A DNA stretch of 64,000 nucleotides from an uncultured Psychroserpens sp. Lineage in GTDB: Bacteria; Bacteroidota; Bacteroidia; Flavobacteriales; Flavobacteriaceae. Within the stretch, counting starts at the first letter, position 1. Every line of letters starts with the position of its first letter. Shown one piece after another: positions 35,921 to 44,817 of this stretch. Made by a program: the position numbers and the translations under genes. The stretch covers positions 124,001 to 188,000 of the forward strand of contig CANKZZ010000005.1 of the NCBI GenBank assembly GCA_947488655.1. The letters are read 5' to 3'. Below the pieces are notes generated by a model. That model was not told the origin of the DNA. It ran no database searches and saw nothing but the letters and a program-made list of their open reading frames with translations.

Positions 35921-36059
35921 TCTTTATTTTCTGTTGTTTTAATTATTAAAGACGTGTTACCGCCAATTCTCAAAGATACGCTATTCTGTTAATTTATCAA
36001 AGTACTTAAAAAATATAGTTAATAAATGTTAATTTTTCAATACCTAATAGTATTACTAT

Positions 36060-36067
36060 TATCTTTG
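36060..36067 (+). promoter_or_regulatory. -7 box TATCTTTG for the tetR-family operon
   Basis: TATCTTTG matches TAnnTTTG exactly and lies 18 nt before ATG 36086. The upstream box is a weak TTTC about 21 nt away. Its position makes translation from the further-upstream in-frame start at 36026 unlikely. Confidence 0.55.
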
Positions 36068-36085
36068 CGTGTAAATTATATTAAA

Positions 36086-36760
36086 ATGAAAACTTTACTT
36101 TCAAATTTAAAAATTGAAATCAATCAAAATATCTATTTAAAGGATCCAGAATCTTCAGATCTTGGCAAACGTATTATAGAGCATAGCATCAAACTTATTG
36201 ATGATATTGGATTTGATAGTTTTACGTTTAAAAAACTTGGGGTTATAATAGGCTCCAACGAAAGCTCTATTTACAGGTATTTTGATAGTAAGCATAAACT
36301 CCTACTCTATTTAACTTCGTGGTATTGGGGCTGGTTAGAGTATCAGTTAGTATTTTCTACTACCAATATATCTAAAGCTTCAAAAAAGCTAGAAAAGGCA
36401 ATTAGCATATTAACAAGAACCATCGAGTCTGACTCTACCTTCTCTCATATAGATGAAGTTACACTAAGTCGTGTGGTAATTAATGAGTATTCTAAATCGT
36501 ATTTAACTAAAGAAGTAGATGAAGAGAATAAAGAGGGTTATTTCGCTATTTACAAGCGTTTAGTAACACGCTTGCATGATATAATTATAGAAGTTAATGC
36601 GTCCTACAAATTTCCGCATAGTCTTGCAAGTACAGTAATTGATGGTGCTTTACACCAACATTTTTTAAAAGATCATTTTAAATCTTTAACAGATTGTAAT
36701 GACAAAATTCAACCATCTGATTATTTCACACATTTAGTAACTAACGCTTTAAAAAAGTAA
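36086..36760 (+). CDS. TetR-family transcriptional regulator
   Basis: 224 residues from ATG 36086. An in-frame start at 36026 would lie upstream of the predicted promoter and add a non-homologous hydrophobic leader, so I reject it. The N-terminal helix-turn-helix is clear: RIIEHSIKLIDDIGFDSFTF, then GSNESSIYRYFDSKHKLLLYL, the usual SxxxxYRYFxxKxxLL signature. The C-terminal ligand domain is not assignable. It lies 3 nt before the ABC gene of the export operon, so it is probably an autoregulator of that operon. Confidence 0.88.
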   Translation: MKTLLSNLKIEINQNIYLKDPESSDLGKRIIEHSIKLIDDIGFDSFTFKKLGVIIGSNESSIYRYFDSKHKLLLYLTSWYWGWLEYQLVFSTTNISKASKKLEKAISILTRTIESDSTFSHIDEVTLSRVVINEYSKSYLTKEVDEENKEGYFAIYKRLVTRLHDIIIEVNASYKFPHSLASTVIDGALHQHFLKDHFKSLTDCNDKIQPSDYFTHLVTNALKK

Positions 36761-36763
36761 CTA

Positions 36764-38428
36764 ATGACAAAAACTGTATTAACGTCTTGGCAACGCCTCA
36801 TTGGCCTTTTAAAATTAGACAAAAAAGATATTAGACAAGTTTTTTACTATGCTATTTTTGCTGGTATTGTAAATTTATCTCTTCCTTTAGGGATACAAGC
36901 TATAATCAATCTACTTCAAGGTGCTCAAATAAGCAGTTCTTGGATAGTATTGGTCATTTTGGTAACGCTTGGTGTTGCGTTTGTTGGTGTATTACAACTC
37001 ATGCAAATGCGAATAATTGAAAACGTTCAGCAAAAGGTTTTTACACGTTCGTCGTTTGAATTTGCTTATCGTTTTCCGAAGATAAAAATGAGCGAGTTAC
37101 GCAATTATTATCCGCCAGAATTAGCTAATCGTTTTTTTGATACATTAACTGTACAAAAAGGTTTGTCTAAGATATTAATAGATATTCCTGCTGCTCTATT
37201 ACAAATCATTTTTGGGTTAATGCTACTTTCTCTTTATCATCCATTTTTTATTATTTACGGGATGTTGCTTATACTTTTAATTTATGTTGTTTTTAAGTTT
37301 TCGGCACAACGTGGTTTAGATACAAGTTTAGATGAGTCTAAGCAAAAATATAAAGTAGCGCACTGGCTACAAGAGGTAGCACGTTCTATTTTAAGTTTTA
37401 AACTCTCTGGACGAACAAGCTTGGCACTTCAAAAAAATGATGAGTTAGTGTCTAATTATCTAGATGCTCGTGAGAGTCATTTTAGAGTTTTAGTACAGCA
37501 ATTTATTAAGCTTATAGGCTTTAAAATCTTAGTAACCGCAGGTCTTTTGGTCATTGGAGGTTTTTTAGTACTCAATCAAGAAATGAATATTGGTCAATTT
37601 GTAGCTGCAGAGATTATTATTTTATTGGTTATTAACTCTGTAGAAAAATTAATCTTAGGTCTAGAATCATTTTATGATGTGTTAACATCTATTGAGAAAC
37701 TCGGACAAGTTGTTGACAAAGAATTAGAAACTCAAGATGGTGGAGAAATTAGTACTAATAAAACATTTTTAGTAGAATTAGATAGTCTAAGTTATTTGGT
37801 GCCAGATATGATGAAACCAATTATAAGTGATGTATCTTTTACTATAAATCCTAAAGATCGTATTTTGATTCATGGGTCGCATGGCTCAGGAAAATCTACA
37901 TTACTAAAATTAATTGCAGGTATAAATCAACCTACATCTGGTGTATTGTACATAAATGATGTGGCATTGCAAGGGATTAAATTAAATGAGTATAGAGCCA
38001 ATATTGGTCAATCTCTACCAGAAGAATCACCTTTTGAAGGCACAGTTAGAGAGAATTTAACTTTTGGAGATCCTAATATAACTGATGATCATATACATTT
38101 TGTGCTAGAAAAAGTAAAGCTTGTAAATTTTGTAAAATCTCAAGCAAGAGGTTTAAATACGATGCTTTATCCTGAAGGTCAAAGACTATCATCTACAGTC
38201 TCTAAAAAAATTGTTTTAGCTCGAAGTATTCTTAAAAATCCAAAACTATTATTACTAAAAGATCCATTAGAACAATTTGAAGAAAAAGAGGCTCAAAGTA
38301 TTATGGAATATTTGACAGATATTAATAACCCTTGGTCACTTGTAGTAGTGAGTTACAATATGAAATGGAAAACATACTGTAAGAGAATCATCAATTTAGA
38401 AAAAGGTAAAATCGTACTAAATAATTAA
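36764..38428 (+). CDS. ABC exporter (TMD-NBD fusion) with degraded ATPase motifs
   Basis: 554 residues: about six membrane helices (residues 25-290) followed by one nucleotide-binding domain, the layout of type I secretion or peptide exporters without a peptidase domain. Walker A is intact (GSHGSGKST, 371-379, Lys377). The signature LSGGQ is replaced by LSSTVS (475-480). The Walker B region reads LLLLKDPLE (495-503), with Lys where Asp is expected and Asp where the catalytic Glu is expected. The H-loop position reads VVSYNMKW with no His. ATP may bind, but hydrolysis in a canonical way looks unlikely. The gene sits between tetR and the HlyD-type adaptor, both within 6 nt. Confidence 0.88.
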   Translation: MTKTVLTSWQRLIGLLKLDKKDIRQVFYYAIFAGIVNLSLPLGIQAIINLLQGAQISSSWIVLVILVTLGVAFVGVLQLMQMRIIENVQQKVFTRSSFEFAYRFPKIKMSELRNYYPPELANRFFDTLTVQKGLSKILIDIPAALLQIIFGLMLLSLYHPFFIIYGMLLILLIYVVFKFSAQRGLDTSLDESKQKYKVAHWLQEVARSILSFKLSGRTSLALQKNDELVSNYLDARESHFRVLVQQFIKLIGFKILVTAGLLVIGGFLVLNQEMNIGQFVAAEIIILLVINSVEKLILGLESFYDVLTSIEKLGQVVDKELETQDGGEISTNKTFLVELDSLSYLVPDMMKPIISDVSFTINPKDRILIHGSHGSGKSTLLKLIAGINQPTSGVLYINDVALQGIKLNEYRANIGQSLPEESPFEGTVRENLTFGDPNITDDHIHFVLEKVKLVNFVKSQARGLNTMLYPEGQRLSSTVSKKIVLARSILKNPKLLLLKDPLEQFEEKEAQSIMEYLTDINNPWSLVVVSYNMKWKTYCKRIINLEKGKIVLNN

Positions 38429-38433
38429 TAAAC

Positions 38434-39786
38434 ATGCTTAATATTTCTAACAATAAATTGAATAAAAAAGTTGATTTATCTAGTTATAAATCGGTACAAA
38501 AGGTGTTTCATAAAAGACATTTTAAACATTTTAATCGCTTTCTATTAGTATTTGCTATTGTGGTTTTCATAGTTATGTTTTTACCATGGACTCAAAACAT
38601 TAATAGTCGTGGTAGTGTGACTACATTAACACCAGATCAAAGACCACAAACTATTCAATCTCCAATTCCTGGACGAATAGAAAAATGGTACGTTAGAGAA
38701 GGTGATTTTGTAAAAAAGGGTGATACAATTTTATTTATTTCTGAAATAAAAAATGAATATTTTGATCCTAACCTAGTTAACCGAACAGGTGAGCAAATAA
38801 AGGCAAAAGAAGCCTCTGTAGTATCATATGGCTCTAAAGTTAATGCACTTAACAATCAAATCGGAGCGTTAAGTCGAGAACGTGAGTTAAAACTAGAACA
38901 AGCGCAAAACAAATTACTACAATCTAAATTAAAAGTAAAGAGTGATAGTATTGATTTAGAAGCTGTTAAAATTAATCTAGGTATTGCCGAACGACAAGTT
39001 GGTGCTACAGAAAAATTATATGAAGAAGGTCTTAAATCTTTAACCCAATTAGAAGAAAAACGCTCTAAATATCAAGAATCACAGTCTAAATTAATCTCTC
39101 AGGAAAACAAATTTTTAGCTTCAAAAAATGAAGTTATTAATGCTATGGTAGAAATAAATCGTGTGAGAGCAGAATATGCAGACAAAATTTCAAAAGCTCA
39201 AAGCGACAAGTTTACAGCAGAGTCAAATGGCTATGATGCAGAAGCTCAAGTAACAAAACTAGAAAGTGATTTTACCAATTACGAAATGCGTAATGCCATG
39301 TATTATATAAAAGCACCTCAAAATGGCTATATAAATAAAGCCATCGTTGGTGGTATTGGTGAGACATTTAAAGAGGGTCAACAATTAGTTGGTATCATGC
39401 CAGCTAATTATGATCTGGCTGTAGAAACCTATGTAAACCCTTTAGATTTACCACTTATTCATCTTAACGAAAAAGTACGTGTACAATTTGATGGTTGGCC
39501 AGCTATAGTATTTAGTGGTTGGCCAAATGTGTCTTATGGTACTTATGGAGCAAAAGTAGTTGCCATAGAAAATTTTATTAGCCCTAACGGAAAGTTTAGA
39601 ATCCTGTTAGCTCCAGATGAAACAGATTACGAATGGCCAGAAGCTATTAGAGTTGGCTCTGGAGCCAAAACAATTGCACTTTTAGAAGATGTTCCTATTT
39701 GGTTTGAATTGTGGAGAAATTTAAATGGGTTTCCTCCTAATTACTATCAGCCAATTGGAGCCACTAATACCAAAAATGACAAATAG
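38434..39786 (+). CDS. HlyD-family membrane fusion protein
   Basis: 450 residues. There is one N-terminal membrane helix (about 32-50), then a biotinyl/lipoyl-like hairpin half (QSPIPGRIEKWYVREGDFVK, about 73-92). A long coiled coil with EREL and KLEQAQNK repeats (about 120-270) follows, then the second lipoyl half (YIKAPQNGYINKAIVGGIG) and a beta-barrel domain. This is the periplasmic adaptor joining the inner-membrane ABC protein to the TolC-like channel encoded 3 nt downstream. At 450 residues it is in the HlyD range rather than the shorter RND-adaptor range. Confidence 0.92.
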   Translation: MLNISNNKLNKKVDLSSYKSVQKVFHKRHFKHFNRFLLVFAIVVFIVMFLPWTQNINSRGSVTTLTPDQRPQTIQSPIPGRIEKWYVREGDFVKKGDTILFISEIKNEYFDPNLVNRTGEQIKAKEASVVSYGSKVNALNNQIGALSRERELKLEQAQNKLLQSKLKVKSDSIDLEAVKINLGIAERQVGATEKLYEEGLKSLTQLEEKRSKYQESQSKLISQENKFLASKNEVINAMVEINRVRAEYADKISKAQSDKFTAESNGYDAEAQVTKLESDFTNYEMRNAMYYIKAPQNGYINKAIVGGIGETFKEGQQLVGIMPANYDLAVETYVNPLDLPLIHLNEKVRVQFDGWPAIVFSGWPNVSYGTYGAKVVAIENFISPNGKFRILLAPDETDYEWPEAIRVGSGAKTIALLEDVPIWFELWRNLNGFPPNYYQPIGATNTKNDK

Positions 39787-39788
39787 AA

Positions 39789-41192
39789 ATGAGAACGTTT
39801 TTAATACTATTATTTATAAGTATTGCACCTTTAACCTTTGCGCAAACTCAAGATACCATAATATTAAGTTTTAGTGAGTACTTAGGCTATGTTAAAAAAT
39901 ACCATCCTATAGCCAAGCAAGCCAATTTAACTATTAAAATAGGTCAGGCTAATTTAATGAAAGCTCGTGGTGCGTTTGATCCAAAAATTGAAGTAGATAA
40001 TAACCGTAAAGTATTTAAAAACTTAGAATACTACGACCAGCTTAATGCTACTTTTAAAATCCCAACTTGGTATGGTATAGAACTCAAAGGAAATTTTGAG
40101 CAAAATGAAGGTGTATTTTTAAACCCACAAGCAACTGTTCCTGATGATGGTTTATATAGTGCAGGAATTTCTGCATCCTTAGGTCAAGGCCTCTTTATTA
40201 ATAAGCGTATGGCAGATTTAAAAAAGGCAAAATATTTTATAGAGCAAACCGCTGCAGATAGAGAAATACTTATAAATCAAATATTATACGATGCTTCTCT
40301 TGCCTATTTTAATTGGTTACAAGCTCATAACGAAATTCTCATTTATAGCCAGTTTTTAGAAAATTCTAAAATAAGGTTTGATGGTGTAAAACGTAGTGTA
40401 GAAAATGGAGACAAGGCTGCTATCGATTCTATCGAAGCAGGTATTGTTGTTAAAAACAGAGCACTTGGATTAGAGCAATCTAATGTAAAGTTGATGAAAG
40501 CTTCGTTAGAATTATCTACATTTTTATGGTTAGACAACAATATTCCGGTAGAAATACAACCTAATGTAATACCAGACTCATTAATTGAAGAAACGGTTGA
40601 TAATGTACTAGAAATTGCTGGAATACCACTTACAGATTTTGTACTAGAAACGCATCCAAAACTTAGGTCTTTAAACTACAAATTCAAAGGATTAGAAGTA
40701 GATAAGCAACTCAAAGCAAATAAGTTATTACCAAAAATAGATGTGCAGTACAATTTTTTAACACAGGATCCAGATCTCGCAAGATCATTTAATACAAATC
40801 AATTTAAGGGTGGATTTAGTATTTCTTTTCCTCTTTTTCTTCGGAAAGAACGCGGTGATTTAAAACTTGCTAAATATAAACTTCAAGATACTCAATTTGA
40901 TATAAGCAACGCAAAAATAACTATTCAGAATAAAGTATTATCGCTTTATAGAGAGTTAGAATCATTTAAAACTCAAAACGAGTTAATTACCAAAATTGTG
41001 AAAGATTATACGACAATGCTCAATGCAGAAGAGCGCAAATTCAGTTTTGGCGAAAGCTCATTATTTTTAATAAATTCTCGTGAAAAAAGCCTCATAGACT
41101 CACAATTAAAAGCCATTGAAGTTCAAAATAAATTTTTAAAAGCTAAGGCTAAATTATTTAATAGCTTATCTAGAGATTTAGAAAACCTTTAA
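39789..41192 (+). CDS. TolC-family outer-membrane efflux protein
   Basis: 467 residues with a signal peptide (MRTFLILLFISIAPLTFAQ). Two outer-membrane-efflux repeats are visible. The first starts at YLGYVKKYHPIAKQANL and the second at VLETHPKLRSLNYKFKGLE (about residue 289). Each has the long amphipathic helices of TolC and a short beta segment such as GFSISFPLFLRKERGDLKLA. It provides the outer-membrane duct for the ABC/HlyD pair. The stop codon overlaps the stop of the convergent minus-strand gene (41189-41192). Confidence 0.92.
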   Translation: MRTFLILLFISIAPLTFAQTQDTIILSFSEYLGYVKKYHPIAKQANLTIKIGQANLMKARGAFDPKIEVDNNRKVFKNLEYYDQLNATFKIPTWYGIELKGNFEQNEGVFLNPQATVPDDGLYSAGISASLGQGLFINKRMADLKKAKYFIEQTAADREILINQILYDASLAYFNWLQAHNEILIYSQFLENSKIRFDGVKRSVENGDKAAIDSIEAGIVVKNRALGLEQSNVKLMKASLELSTFLWLDNNIPVEIQPNVIPDSLIEETVDNVLEIAGIPLTDFVLETHPKLRSLNYKFKGLEVDKQLKANKLLPKIDVQYNFLTQDPDLARSFNTNQFKGGFSISFPLFLRKERGDLKLAKYKLQDTQFDISNAKITIQNKVLSLYRELESFKTQNELITKIVKDYTTMLNAEERKFSFGESSLFLINSREKSLIDSQLKAIEVQNKFLKAKAKLFNSLSRDLENL

Positions 41193-41905
41193 TTTTGATT
41201 AGGATTTTTCTCTGTTATAGGATTAGCATCCTTAATAACCATTATTGTAGCCTTAACACCTGTGAGAAGATTCCATTTTTTGGAAGACACAAGGTTACCA
41301 TTATCATCATACACAATAAACTCTGCAGTATTTGGGCCAGAATCTCCTTGATTTAAAGCCAAAAATTCAATTTTATTACTTCCAGGAATTAAAGTTACAT
41401 TAAAACCTTTGTAGCCTCCAGTTAATAAAAGTCTAGGTACAATAATATCGTCATTAACCCTAACTTGTACCAAGTCACCATCTGGATACTCATGGTCTCT
41501 ACAAACGATTCTAACAAAGGCTCCATTATTTTTAATTTCTCCTAAAAATACATCTGCCATGGTTTCAATTTTGAGACCTTGCTCTACAGCAACTTTATTA
41601 AATCGTTGCTCAAACATCTCACCAGGATTTCTCAACCCATTATCATCTATCATTGAGAATTCTTTTTGCGGTTTGGCTATAGAAACTTTCTTTTCTTTAG
41701 GGATAGTAATACCTGCAATATTCTTTTTTGTTTTGGTAATCCCAATTTTAGAATTGGGTTTTATGTCTAATTTTACTTGAGTTGTATCCTTTTTCTCGGT
41801 TTCTTTTGCTGGTATTTTTATTGATTTTTTCTCATTAGTATCTGGTTGCGCATACACTTGTATAGCAAATATTGAAAAAAGCAGTAAGATGATTTTATGT
41901 TTCAT
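41189..41905 (-). CDS. Exported protein of unknown function
   Basis: 238 residues from the Met at 41905 (MKHKIILLLFSIFAIQVYAQ, a clear signal peptide). The Met just before it would serve equally, and an upstream in-frame start gives a poorer N terminus. A Lys/Thr/Pro-rich low-complexity linker (about 20-75) leads to a conserved-looking domain with DNGLRNPGEMFEQRFN, ADVFLGEIKNNGAFVRIVCRD and an Ig-like series of strands (GYKGFNVTLIPGSNKIEFLA). It looks like a periplasmic or cell-surface beta-sandwich protein. Function is not known to me. Confidence 0.75.
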   Translation of the reverse strand: MKHKIILLLFSIFAIQVYAQPDTNEKKSIKIPAKETEKKDTTQVKLDIKPNSKIGITKTKKNIAGITIPKEKKVSIAKPQKEFSMIDDNGLRNPGEMFEQRFNKVAVEQGLKIETMADVFLGEIKNNGAFVRIVCRDHEYPDGDLVQVRVNDDIIVPRLLLTGGYKGFNVTLIPGSNKIEFLALNQGDSGPNTAEFIVYDDNGNLVSSKKWNLLTGVKATIMVIKDANPITEKNPNQN

Positions 41906-42001
41906 CATTAGAATGTTTGATACGGTATATTCAAAAACTATACCTAATACCATATAATCTCAAAAGTAACGTGTTAAAATCTTAATTATTTAAAAAATAC
42001 G

Positions 42002-43516: not shown

Positions 43517-43641
43517 ACAGTTAATAGCTTCTGAAAAAAAAATTCTCACAAAATTAACTCATTATAAGGTTATTTGGGCATAATGTTCACAACATTTGAA
43601 AAGTTCTACCCCTCTTTTTATGTTAAAATATGTTAAATAAC

Positions 43642-43660
43642 TACTATGTAATACAAAGTA
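43642..43660. promoter_or_regulatory. Imperfect dyad upstream of the micro-ORF array (candidate operator)
   Basis: TACTATGT (43642-43649) AAT ACAAAGTA (43653-43660): arms of 8 bp with one mismatch. It lies 64 nt before the first micro-ORF, where an operator or promoter would be expected. The ATGT...ACA core recalls PadR-type sites, but no PadR gene is in the window. Confidence 0.35.
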
Positions 43661-43723
43661 CTGTAACAAATCTTAATGACCCTCGTCTTTATAGTATAAC
43701 ATCAATCATTAAAATCAATTATT

Positions 43724-43810
43724 ATGAGAACTTTAAACACCAATCAACTATCAAGTACAGTAAGTGAATCTAAGATTTATACCTGGAACAAAAAGAGACG
43801 ATATAGATAA
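43724..43810 (+). CDS. Micropeptide 1 (28 aa), basic C terminus
   Basis: ATG 43724 to TAA 43808-43810. The peptide starts MRTLNTNQ and ends TYNWKK-like: more exactly, YTWNKKRRYR at residues 19-28. It matches the next ORF at 19 of 28 positions with no gap, and most other changes are conservative. Five shared residues use different synonymous codons, which points to selection on the peptide. It has no signal sequence or membrane helix; the C terminus is strongly basic and aromatic. Function is unknown; leader peptide, regulatory peptide or small RNA-binding protein are all possible. Confidence 0.55.
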   Translation: MRTLNTNQLSSTVSESKIYTWNKKRRYR

Positions 43811-43859
43811 TTAATCTAGCGTCAAAAAATTATCATCAATCAATTAAAATCAAAATATC

Positions 43860-43946
43860 ATGAGAACATTAAACAGCAATCAAATTACAAGTACCAATAC
43901 CGAAACAAGAATTTTTACTTGGAATCAAAAAAGACGATATAGATAA
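43860..43946 (+). CDS. Micropeptide 2 (28 aa), paralogue of micropeptide 1
   Basis: ATG 43860 to TAA 43944-43946. It starts MRTLNSNQ and ends FTWNQKRRYR. Length is identical to the first micropeptide and the last five residues KRRYR are invariant. Differences are mainly T/S, L/I, K/R and Y/F. It begins 49 nt after the first stop, after its own copy of the leader repeat. The tandem arrangement indicates duplication within one transcription unit. Confidence 0.55.
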   Translation: MRTLNSNQITSTNTETRIFTWNQKRRYR

Positions 43947-43983
43947 TATATATCCATTCATCAATCAAAAAAATCAATCTACC

Positions 43984-44052
43984 ATGAAGGCATTAACTAG
44001 AATTATAAATACAACACATACAACAAACGATGACTTAGAAACGTTACGTTAG
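43984..44052 (+). CDS. Micropeptide 3 (22 aa), possible diverged relative
   Basis: ATG 43984 to TAG 44050-44052. It encodes MKALTRIINTTHTTNDDLETLR. The start resembles the other two (M-basic-small-Leu) and it has the same leader repeat upstream, but the TWN..KRRYR tail is missing. Its status as a real gene rests mainly on its position and leader. Confidence 0.35.
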   Translation: MKALTRIINTTHTTNDDLETLR

Positions 44053-44120
44053 TGTTATAATTAAAATATTCATCAATCAACAATAGGTATTGAAATCTAT
44101 TTCAATATAAAATCAAAAAA

Positions 44121-44152
44121 GACCAGCAAACAATATGTTCGCTGGTCTTTTT
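44121..44152 (+). terminator. Strong intrinsic terminator of the micro-ORF unit
   Basis: GACCAGCAAAC (44121-44131), loop AATAT, GTTCGCTGGTC (44137-44147), then TTTTT: an 11-bp stem with one mismatch. It is also preceded by A6, so it may work on both strands. Confidence 0.88.
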
Positions 44153-44250
44153 GCTTTAACAAAATATTATGGTATCGTTTTTGTGACTTGATTAGAATTA
44201 TTAATCATCTTTTTTACTGAAAAGTATTTGGGATTTAAACACTCACTATT

Positions 44251-44817
44251 ATGAAAAGTTCAAGACGAGATTACCCAGAAGTTAATGCAGGATCTATGGC
44301 AGATATTGCATTTTTATTGCTTATTTTTTTCTTAGTAACCGCAGTTATACCCAAAGACAAAGGAATAAATAGAATATTGCCACCTCCTTGTCCTCCAAAT
44401 ACAATTTGTAATGATATTCCTGTTCACCAGCGAAATATTCTAGAAATAAAAGTCAATGCCAGCAACGAATTACTGTTAGAAAATGAACTTATTTCTATTG
44501 ACGAACTTAAAGACATCACTAAAGAATTCTTGACAAATAATGGTGATGGCTCATGTAATTATTGTGTAGGTTTAGCTAATAAAGAATCATCAGACAATCC
44601 AAAAAAAGCAGTTGTATCATTAGCTAACGACTATGAAACATCTTATAATTTTTACATTAGAGTACAAGATGAAATTACAAAAGCCTATTATGAATTAAGA
44701 AGCGACTACGCACTTGATGTTTTTAAGAAAACTTCTAATGAATTAACTCAAGAAGAACTTCAGGAGGTAAAAAAGGCCTACCCTTTTATTTTGTCTGAAG
44801 CTGAAATTAAAAATTAG
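44251..44817 (+). CDS. ExbD/TolR-family biopolymer transport protein
   Basis: 188 residues with one N-terminal membrane helix (about 16-33, MADIAFLLLIFFLVTAV) containing the conserved Asp18. This Asp is the proton-carrying residue of ExbD/TolR proteins. The periplasmic part has a Cys/Pro-rich segment (LPPPCPPNTICND) and an ExbD-like fold in which VVSLANDYETSYNFYIRVQD corresponds to the dimer domain. It should work with ExbB (TolQ-like) and TonB to energise outer-membrane receptors. No exbB or tonB is beside it, so it is an orphan here. ExbD in Bacteroidota is often present in several copies. Confidence 0.85.
   Translation: MKSSRRDYPEVNAGSMADIAFLLLIFFLVTAVIPKDKGINRILPPPCPPNTICNDIPVHQRNILEIKVNASNELLLENELISIDELKDITKEFLTNNGDGSCNYCVGLANKESSDNPKKAVVSLANDYETSYNFYIRVQDEITKAYYELRSDYALDVFKKTSNELTQEELQEVKKAYPFILSEAEIKN

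Follow-up and report, generated by a model that had tools for sequence, protein, structure and literature searches.

Tandem arrays of basic micropeptide genes with a predicted ECF-type promoter and an abutting PadR-type operator in Flavobacteriaceae

The window (the whole 64,000-nucleotide stretch of uncultured Psychroserpens sp. DNA that was analysed) contains a micropeptide operon of approximately 450 nt, in which two open reading frames (ORFs) of 28 amino acids (aa) and one of 22 aa follow each other in tandem (Table 1). The three ORFs are as the initial annotation had described them. ORF1 and ORF2, whose products are called A peptides here, are alike at 19 of 28 residues (68 per cent) without gaps and form a 95-nt direct repeat at 77 per cent identity; the same leader motif stands ahead of each ORF and, a fourth time, without an ORF after it. 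Two details of that description required amendment: the dyad upstream is present, but its nature as the operator of the promoter had been missed, and the terminator that ends the unit has arms of 17 nt (94 per cent complementary) rather than the 11 bp given.

Table 1. Features of the micropeptide array and the gene that follows it; positions are those of the window.
Feature	Position	Strand	Basis or remark
Direct repeat TGTTAA-N4-TGTTAA, candidate activator site	43621..43636	+	Upstream of the operator; putative function
PadR-type operator TACT-N11-AGTA, TACTATGTAATACAAAGTA (the upstream dyad)	43642..43660	.	Palindrome; fits the cdPadR1 site as given in the cited part of its source
Predicted ECF-type promoter GTAAC-N16-CGTCT	43663..43688	+	Conserved boxes and spacer; abuts the operator
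Leader motif ATCAATCA before ORF1	43701..43708	+	
ORF1, A peptide, 28 aa, MRTLNTNQLSSTVSESKIYTWNKKRRYR	43724..43810	+	Family, purifying selection
Leader motif ATCAATCA before ORF2	43835..43842	+	
ORF2, A peptide, 28 aa, MRTLNSNQITSTNTETRIFTWNQKRRYR	43860..43946	+	Likeness to ORF1, selection
Leader motif ATCAATCA before ORF3	43960..43967	+	
ORF3, short B peptide, 22 aa, MKALTRIINTTHTTNDDLETLR	43984..44052	+	Selection, position at array end
Fourth leader motif ATCAATCA, without an ORF after it	44072..44079	+	
Intrinsic terminator	44116..44152	+	Arms 44116-44132 / 44136-44152
exbD	44251-44817		Next gene after the array

The search for homologs in Flavobacteriaceae that the initial annotation had proposed was positive. 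A profile of the A family, built from the 28-mers (A1) with sequences supplied by a few of the 299 genomes searched, matches 99 of these genomes at a best E-value ≤ 1e-5 (count of result rows) and 136 at E ≤ 0.1, a per-genome threshold at which weak chance matches are expected. Of the 23 genomes examined in the genus, the window's own included, 22 contain relatives of A. The same four genomes match at E ≤ 0.001 in a sample of the order (246 genomes) and in one of the phylum (247 genomes), and all four belong to Flavobacteriaceae; g146, a large genus of the family, has no match at that threshold in these two samples. Within the window's own genome, just the two copies in the window match, and the array is the sole place where the codon pattern WN.KRR[YF] is found.

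For comparison of the peptides, we used 140 A copies (122 distinct sequences), picked by a loose regular expression from 81 chosen loci, namely the window and 80 stretches selected from the matches, some of them from one genome; loci L184-L190 do not form part of the analysis. Their pattern is MRTLxxN...WNxKRRYR with a variable middle. W21, N22, R25 and R26 are invariant across the distinct sequences, and position 24 is K in 120 of the 122. The 140 copies have a net charge of +4 to +9, a mean GRAVY of -1.51 and a highest 10-aa window of 0.86; a hydrophobic membrane helix, the mark of type I toxins, was sought in them and is absent. Pooled within the genus, dN/dS is 0.27 for the first A (22 sequences), 0.17 for the second A (13 sequences) and 0.14 for the ORF3 type (21 sequences), whereas shifting the reading frame of the first A to +1 and +2 yields pN/pS of 2.05 and 0.60; as the pairs are related and non-independent, only the direction of these values is firm. 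This comparison, also proposed earlier, thus places all three ORF types below 1 and, set against the out-of-frame controls, upholds the claim of selection on very small peptides: the pattern indicates that within the genus the amino acids are under purifying selection. The array is kept among relatives and selected in frame, confirming, at the level of sequence, that it is more than a chance repeat.

Slightly more than half of the loci (51/81) occupy a shared, syntenic position. It is flanked on one side by a helicase or by a protein without a Pfam match that is secreted by the look of its start, and on the other by ExbD, an unassigned protein of 138-143 aa or an E1 dehydrogenase. As a separate observation, a protein without a Pfam match is encoded at 41189-41953 (minus strand) in the window, and its family (cluster 0) lies beside the array in 55 of the 81 loci. 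Arrays hold one to four A copies and once nine. At the shared locus, the A copies are followed by a further peptide, B, in 50 of 51 arrays, with lengths of 22-25 aa in 13 arrays and 43-45 aa in 37; on the opposite strand, used as a control, 4 of 51 ORFs fall within these length classes. The long, basic B (43-45 aa; for example, MKSIVKISRHF...SIWKGTKRYAH) also closes the array in many other genera, and its end resembles the end of A. The short ORF3-type B is found in Winogradskyella, Gelidibacter and Ichthyenterobacterium as well. Between genera, the sequence of B diverges strongly. The nine-copy array, also from Psychroserpens (L138:8213-9706; G020:C7), consists of three repeats of approximately 578 nt with three A ORFs each and is a recent amplification in one genome.

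Upstream of the arrays, we searched the 81 loci for GTAAC followed by CGTC with a spacing of 14-18 nt allowed. The pair is present in 70 of 81 loci, and its spacer is 16 nt in all 70. In 61 of these 70 promoters, the operator TACTWTGYNNNRCAWAGTA abuts GTAAC with at most two mismatches, the other nine having no operator; the aligned 70 also share the consensus gTTAAAAt.TGTTAA upstream of the operator. Eleven loci lack the promoter as searched: three of them (L110, L125 and L135) look by eye like near variants or a missed first ORF, and eight are the paralogues ahead of other operons described below. In the window's own genome, 8 of the 11 copies of GTAAC-N16-CGTCT, the one at the array among them, lie between genes, compared to 0 of 13 for the same boxes at other spacers. 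The evidence for a promoter therefore lies in spacing and place and not in number, because the genome-wide total of GTAAC-N14-18-CGTCT does not exceed that of a reversed control (24 versus 46). Copies of GTAAC-N16-CGTCT are also located ahead of genes at L159, L162, L163, L167, L171, L177 and L179; these genes encode two proteins with TonB-receptor plug domains (L159 and L171), an ABC ATPase, a DUF456 protein, an ankyrin protein, a rhodanese and, at L179, a protein without a Pfam match. The sites possibly constitute an ECF regulon.

SM6 promoters of F. psychrophilum, as described in the cited part of their source, contain a CGT box that is attributed to an ECF factor; their targets include a rhodanese, an ABC ATPase and the RNA Rfp11 (PMC9723704). 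The array promoter has CGTC at -10 with a fixed spacing to a -35 element, and the likeness to SM6 extends to the CGT box, to rhodanese and ABC ATPase targets and to one small RNA among the SM6 targets; the comparison is by CGT box and targets, the -35 element being outside the compared text (PMC9723704). We classify the array promoter as ECF-type, with a predicted dependence on such a sigma factor.

The converse scan started from DNA. Across named genomes, operator plus GTAAC, with CGTC not required, yielded at least 117 loci; among the matches listed, 114 are testable and three are too short. Still among the matches listed, CGTC lies exactly 16 nt on in 112 of 114 testable loci, an A peptide is detected by regular expression in 101 of 114, and a micro-ORF with a W-N..R-R motif (preset expression) in 109 of 114. 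The other five loci (L277, L280, L285, L298 and L299) have ORFs of 22-44 aa with W-x3-R-[RNH]-[YF], such as MRTTIFNNSKRVRWSAHRNYAIKS, so that, among the matches listed, all 114 hold a basic micro-ORF with a W...R-[RNH]-[YF] end region (net charge +4 to +12, with the expression widened after the five exceptions). The narrower motif occurs at 0 of 1146 random control positions, drawn from 80 of the loci; the motif expressions were written after examples had been seen. One of the five, L280 from Lutimonas halocynthiae, carries the same switch ahead of five tandem copies of a 22-24-aa peptide that has diverged strongly. Of 395 genomes of the order, 8 have operator, GTAAC and CGTC jointly (count of result rows); all eight are among the 76 Flavobacteriaceae genomes and none among the 319 of other families, although this exact composite pattern overlooks some arrays identified at the protein level (e.g. 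in genome G198). In genome G218, one of the eight, which has no A peptide by profile, the site precedes a 41-aa peptide ending in KYWNSLRRYHS. The composite operator/-35 sites therefore appear to be dedicated to these micropeptides. Because the operator sequence predicts micropeptides even where the A profile failed, as in G218, regulon and effector are directly testable together.

Which protein binds the operator was approached through its other occurrences. In the window's own genome, exact operator matches number 2, compared to 0 in the control, and sites with at most two mismatches are hardly above the control (31 versus 24 per strand). Five sites have at most one mismatch. One is at the array, one at the end of a coding ORF and one at a DUF4870-PadR-PspC operon, and the remaining two flank an operon with an HTH_34 regulator. 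The exact match at the coding-ORF end (C4:71158) was taken as chance. Thirty PadR loci of approximately 3.2 kb were then compared from 20 genomes, with one further PadR place (G239) lacking a locus; 14 of these genomes have A and six have no profile match, G218 with its diverged peptide being one of the six. The operator, with at most two mismatches, is present in all 16 PadR loci that have a PspC-like motif and in 3 of the 14 others (Fisher P-value = 7e-6), against a background at two mismatches of approximately 0.03 sites per 3.2 kb, and it is found at PadR loci also in genomes without an A match. The corresponding operon of the window's genome encodes PadR (112 aa), PspC and HAAS below cut-off and carries the operator with one mismatch. 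TACT-N11-AGTA with an AT-rich spacer thus lies both in the array promoter and at the PadR operon. The HTH_34 regulator operon is flanked by two TACTTTG-N5-CAAAGTA palindromes (L311 and L312, positions 1501-1519 of each). From the counts at PspC-PadR loci and the likeness to the cdPadR1 site, we consider PadR the first candidate for the predicted operator binder and the HTH_34 regulator the second.

Several published systems resemble parts of this arrangement. According to the part of the report cited, cdPadR1 binds TACT(N11-12)AGTA with an AT-rich spacer in its own promoter; it comes from Clostridium and has no link to micropeptides in that text (PMC5050560). For the HAAS-PadR/PspC (phage shock) system, proposed in 2024, the likeness is that the same operator stands before the array and before the DUF4870-PadR-PspC operon, whereas the partners named in the cited portion are proteins with named domains, micropeptides being unmentioned there (PMC11237479). 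In Listeria, LstR (a PadR) and the ECF sigma factor sigma C jointly control one promoter, likewise combining repression by PadR with an ECF-like sigma factor; as far as the cited excerpt goes, LstR controls its own operon, which includes an FtsW/RodA homolog, and no micropeptides (PMC6624303).

The peptides have no family above cut-off in Pfam or NCBIfam. In PHROGs, which has no cut-off, the best match is PHROG_31774 (E = 0.016), and one B peptide matches Pfam bPH_1 below cut-off (E = 0.073). Solved structures gave no convincing match (E = 2.2 and 1.8). Low-confidence AlphaFold models suggest that A (pLDDT 70.5, pTM 0.30) and B (pLDDT 65.8, pTM 0.27) form helices. A phage, viral or plasmid origin was considered and set aside, since neither one DNA pattern nor the one A query used returned a match. 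Four of the peptide strings were found in no paper of the open-access literature searched, nor did a description of the micropeptide family turn up there. The genes of this family are so short that standard gene calling likely misses them. Stress-induced small proteins are already known, and in enterobacteria an ECF sigma factor drives very short products, namely small proteins of the envelope-stress response and the sigma-E small RNAs. By this general description, the array resembles the enterobacterial sigma-E products in being very short and under a predicted ECF sigma factor. We know of no tandem arrays of near-identical peptides in those systems and, to our knowledge, of no other tandem micropeptide array of this type. 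The array adds a conserved micropeptide gene family to a large bacterial family.

Comparison across the loci shows a promoter of predicted ECF type with an abutting PadR-type operator, followed by tandem A ORFs, with B as the last peptide where the locus is the shared one. We interpret it, with a probability of roughly 0.67, as a micropeptide operon whose peptides act in trans and whose expression is under the joint control of PadR and an ECF sigma factor. Repression would come from the PadR encoded in the HAAS/PspC-PadR operon and transcription from an ECF sigma factor; envelope stress, sensed by HAAS/PspC, would release PadR while the ECF factor is active, and the array would switch on. The resulting burst of basic peptides might act in trans in the cytoplasm, given that A has no hydrophobic stretch and a net charge of +4 to +9. 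The most plausible mode is docking of the W-N-x-K-R-R-[YF]-R end on an acidic partner such as the inner membrane surface or RNA/the ribosome, a guess prompted by the charge and the invariant Trp, and the tandem copies might raise the peptide dose. The broader proposal, which we advance tentatively and with more doubt than conviction, is that the arrays are an unrecognised arm of the PSP/PadR envelope-stress response. Its output at this promoter would be very small, basic peptides, dosed by copy number and carrying W-N-x-K-R-R-[YF] at their end, and a closing peptide of kept length (43-45 aa) but genus-divergent sequence, as if it had a lineage-specific partner. The array is a concrete candidate output for the HAAS-PadR/PspC system. 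Of the readings in the initial annotation, the tandem micropeptide gene family agrees with the family-wide conservation, the purifying selection and the dedicated promoter.

The transcript may have a role of its own as RNA. That this role is the principal one, with a dual-function small RNA base pairing via its repeated AUCAAUCA leaders and the peptides secondary, seems unlikely to us, though it deserves to be weighed. ATCAATYA occurs within 45 nt upstream of 81 of the 140 A ORFs, compared to 2.2 in mononucleotide shuffles (a count over related, non-independent copies), and the fourth leader without an ORF would suit such an RNA. So would the array's fold, which with the terminator included is better than that of 99 of 100 shuffles (z = -2.6), and the SM6 promoter ahead of RNA Rfp11 in the cited part of the F. 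psychrophilum study (PMC9723704). However, the window RNA has no Rfam match above the gathering score, conservation acts on amino acids rather than bases, and the leader also precedes the long coding genes with TonB-receptor plug domains (L159 and L171), which makes it fit a role as a translation leader. The peptide-encoding small RNA of the initial annotation is conceivable as an addition to the peptides. A leader-peptide regulator, also suggested there, would here be an attenuator of exbD, and we judge it improbable. In 30 of the 51 syntenic loci, the array is followed directly by a co-directional exbD gene, and the conserved C-terminal part of A recalls arrest peptides, whose C-terminal part is conserved. 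Yet in the other 21 loci ExbD does not follow in that way, so that a fixed downstream gene is lacking and the exbD leader reading was rejected for most genera; at L082, the gene after the array is convergent. Tandem copies and a B peptide would, moreover, be superfluous for a leader, and in the window a terminator separates the array from exbD, although none is visible at L087 and L105. The array's own terminator, claimed initially, holds for the window and many other loci, not for all, because a strict finder detects it in 32 of 81 (33 with a second strict finder). Among six folded loci, it is present in L082, L137 and L148 and not visible in L087, L101 and L105; a consensus terminator scan lists the window hairpin solely on the minus strand.

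A leader role is possible for eight single A paralogues without the ECF/PadR promoter (none in the upstream 125 nt), each located immediately ahead of or inside another operon. The copies at L114, L143 and L144 precede a gene pair for a histidine kinase and a response regulator, those at L102, L104 and L140 lie between a DUF1348 gene and a hydrolase or CMD gene, and those at L141 and L153 precede an ABC gene that is partnered by an M1-peptidase gene. Their distance of approximately 35-120 nt to the ABC/M1, CMD, hydrolase or histidine kinase operons would suit an attenuator. A link of these paralogues to capsule clusters, which the gene clusters had suggested at first sight, did not survive Pfam annotation. 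Secreted signals, bacteriocins or RiPP precursors are very improbable in our estimation, even though the peptides are short and multi-copy with a variable middle, B diverges between genera, and a TetR, ABC exporter, HlyD and TolC-type set (36026-41192) lies 2.5 kb ahead of the array. Of this set, the HlyD and TolC clusters are present in 10 of the 81 fetched stretches and absent from 71, the exporter ABC protein has no peptidase domain in Pfam, and the part of the neighbourhood that was scanned holds no recognisable modification enzyme; the database results for the peptides give this reading no known family either (none above cut-off in Pfam or NCBIfam, best PHROGs E = 0.016). Chance ORFs in a repeated non-coding stretch can be practically dismissed: very short ORFs are common in the AT-rich DNA here, but the spread of the family, the selection, the B peptide at the shared locus and the operator scan contradict this explanation.

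A minor observation concerns the gene that follows the array. ATGGTATCGTTTTTGTGA is located at 44169-44186, before exbD, and, of the 41 exbD genes in the loci, 15 have its form ATGGTAYYGTTTTTG in the 200 nt ahead of them; ATGGTATCGTTTTTGTGA is perhaps exbD's own promoter.
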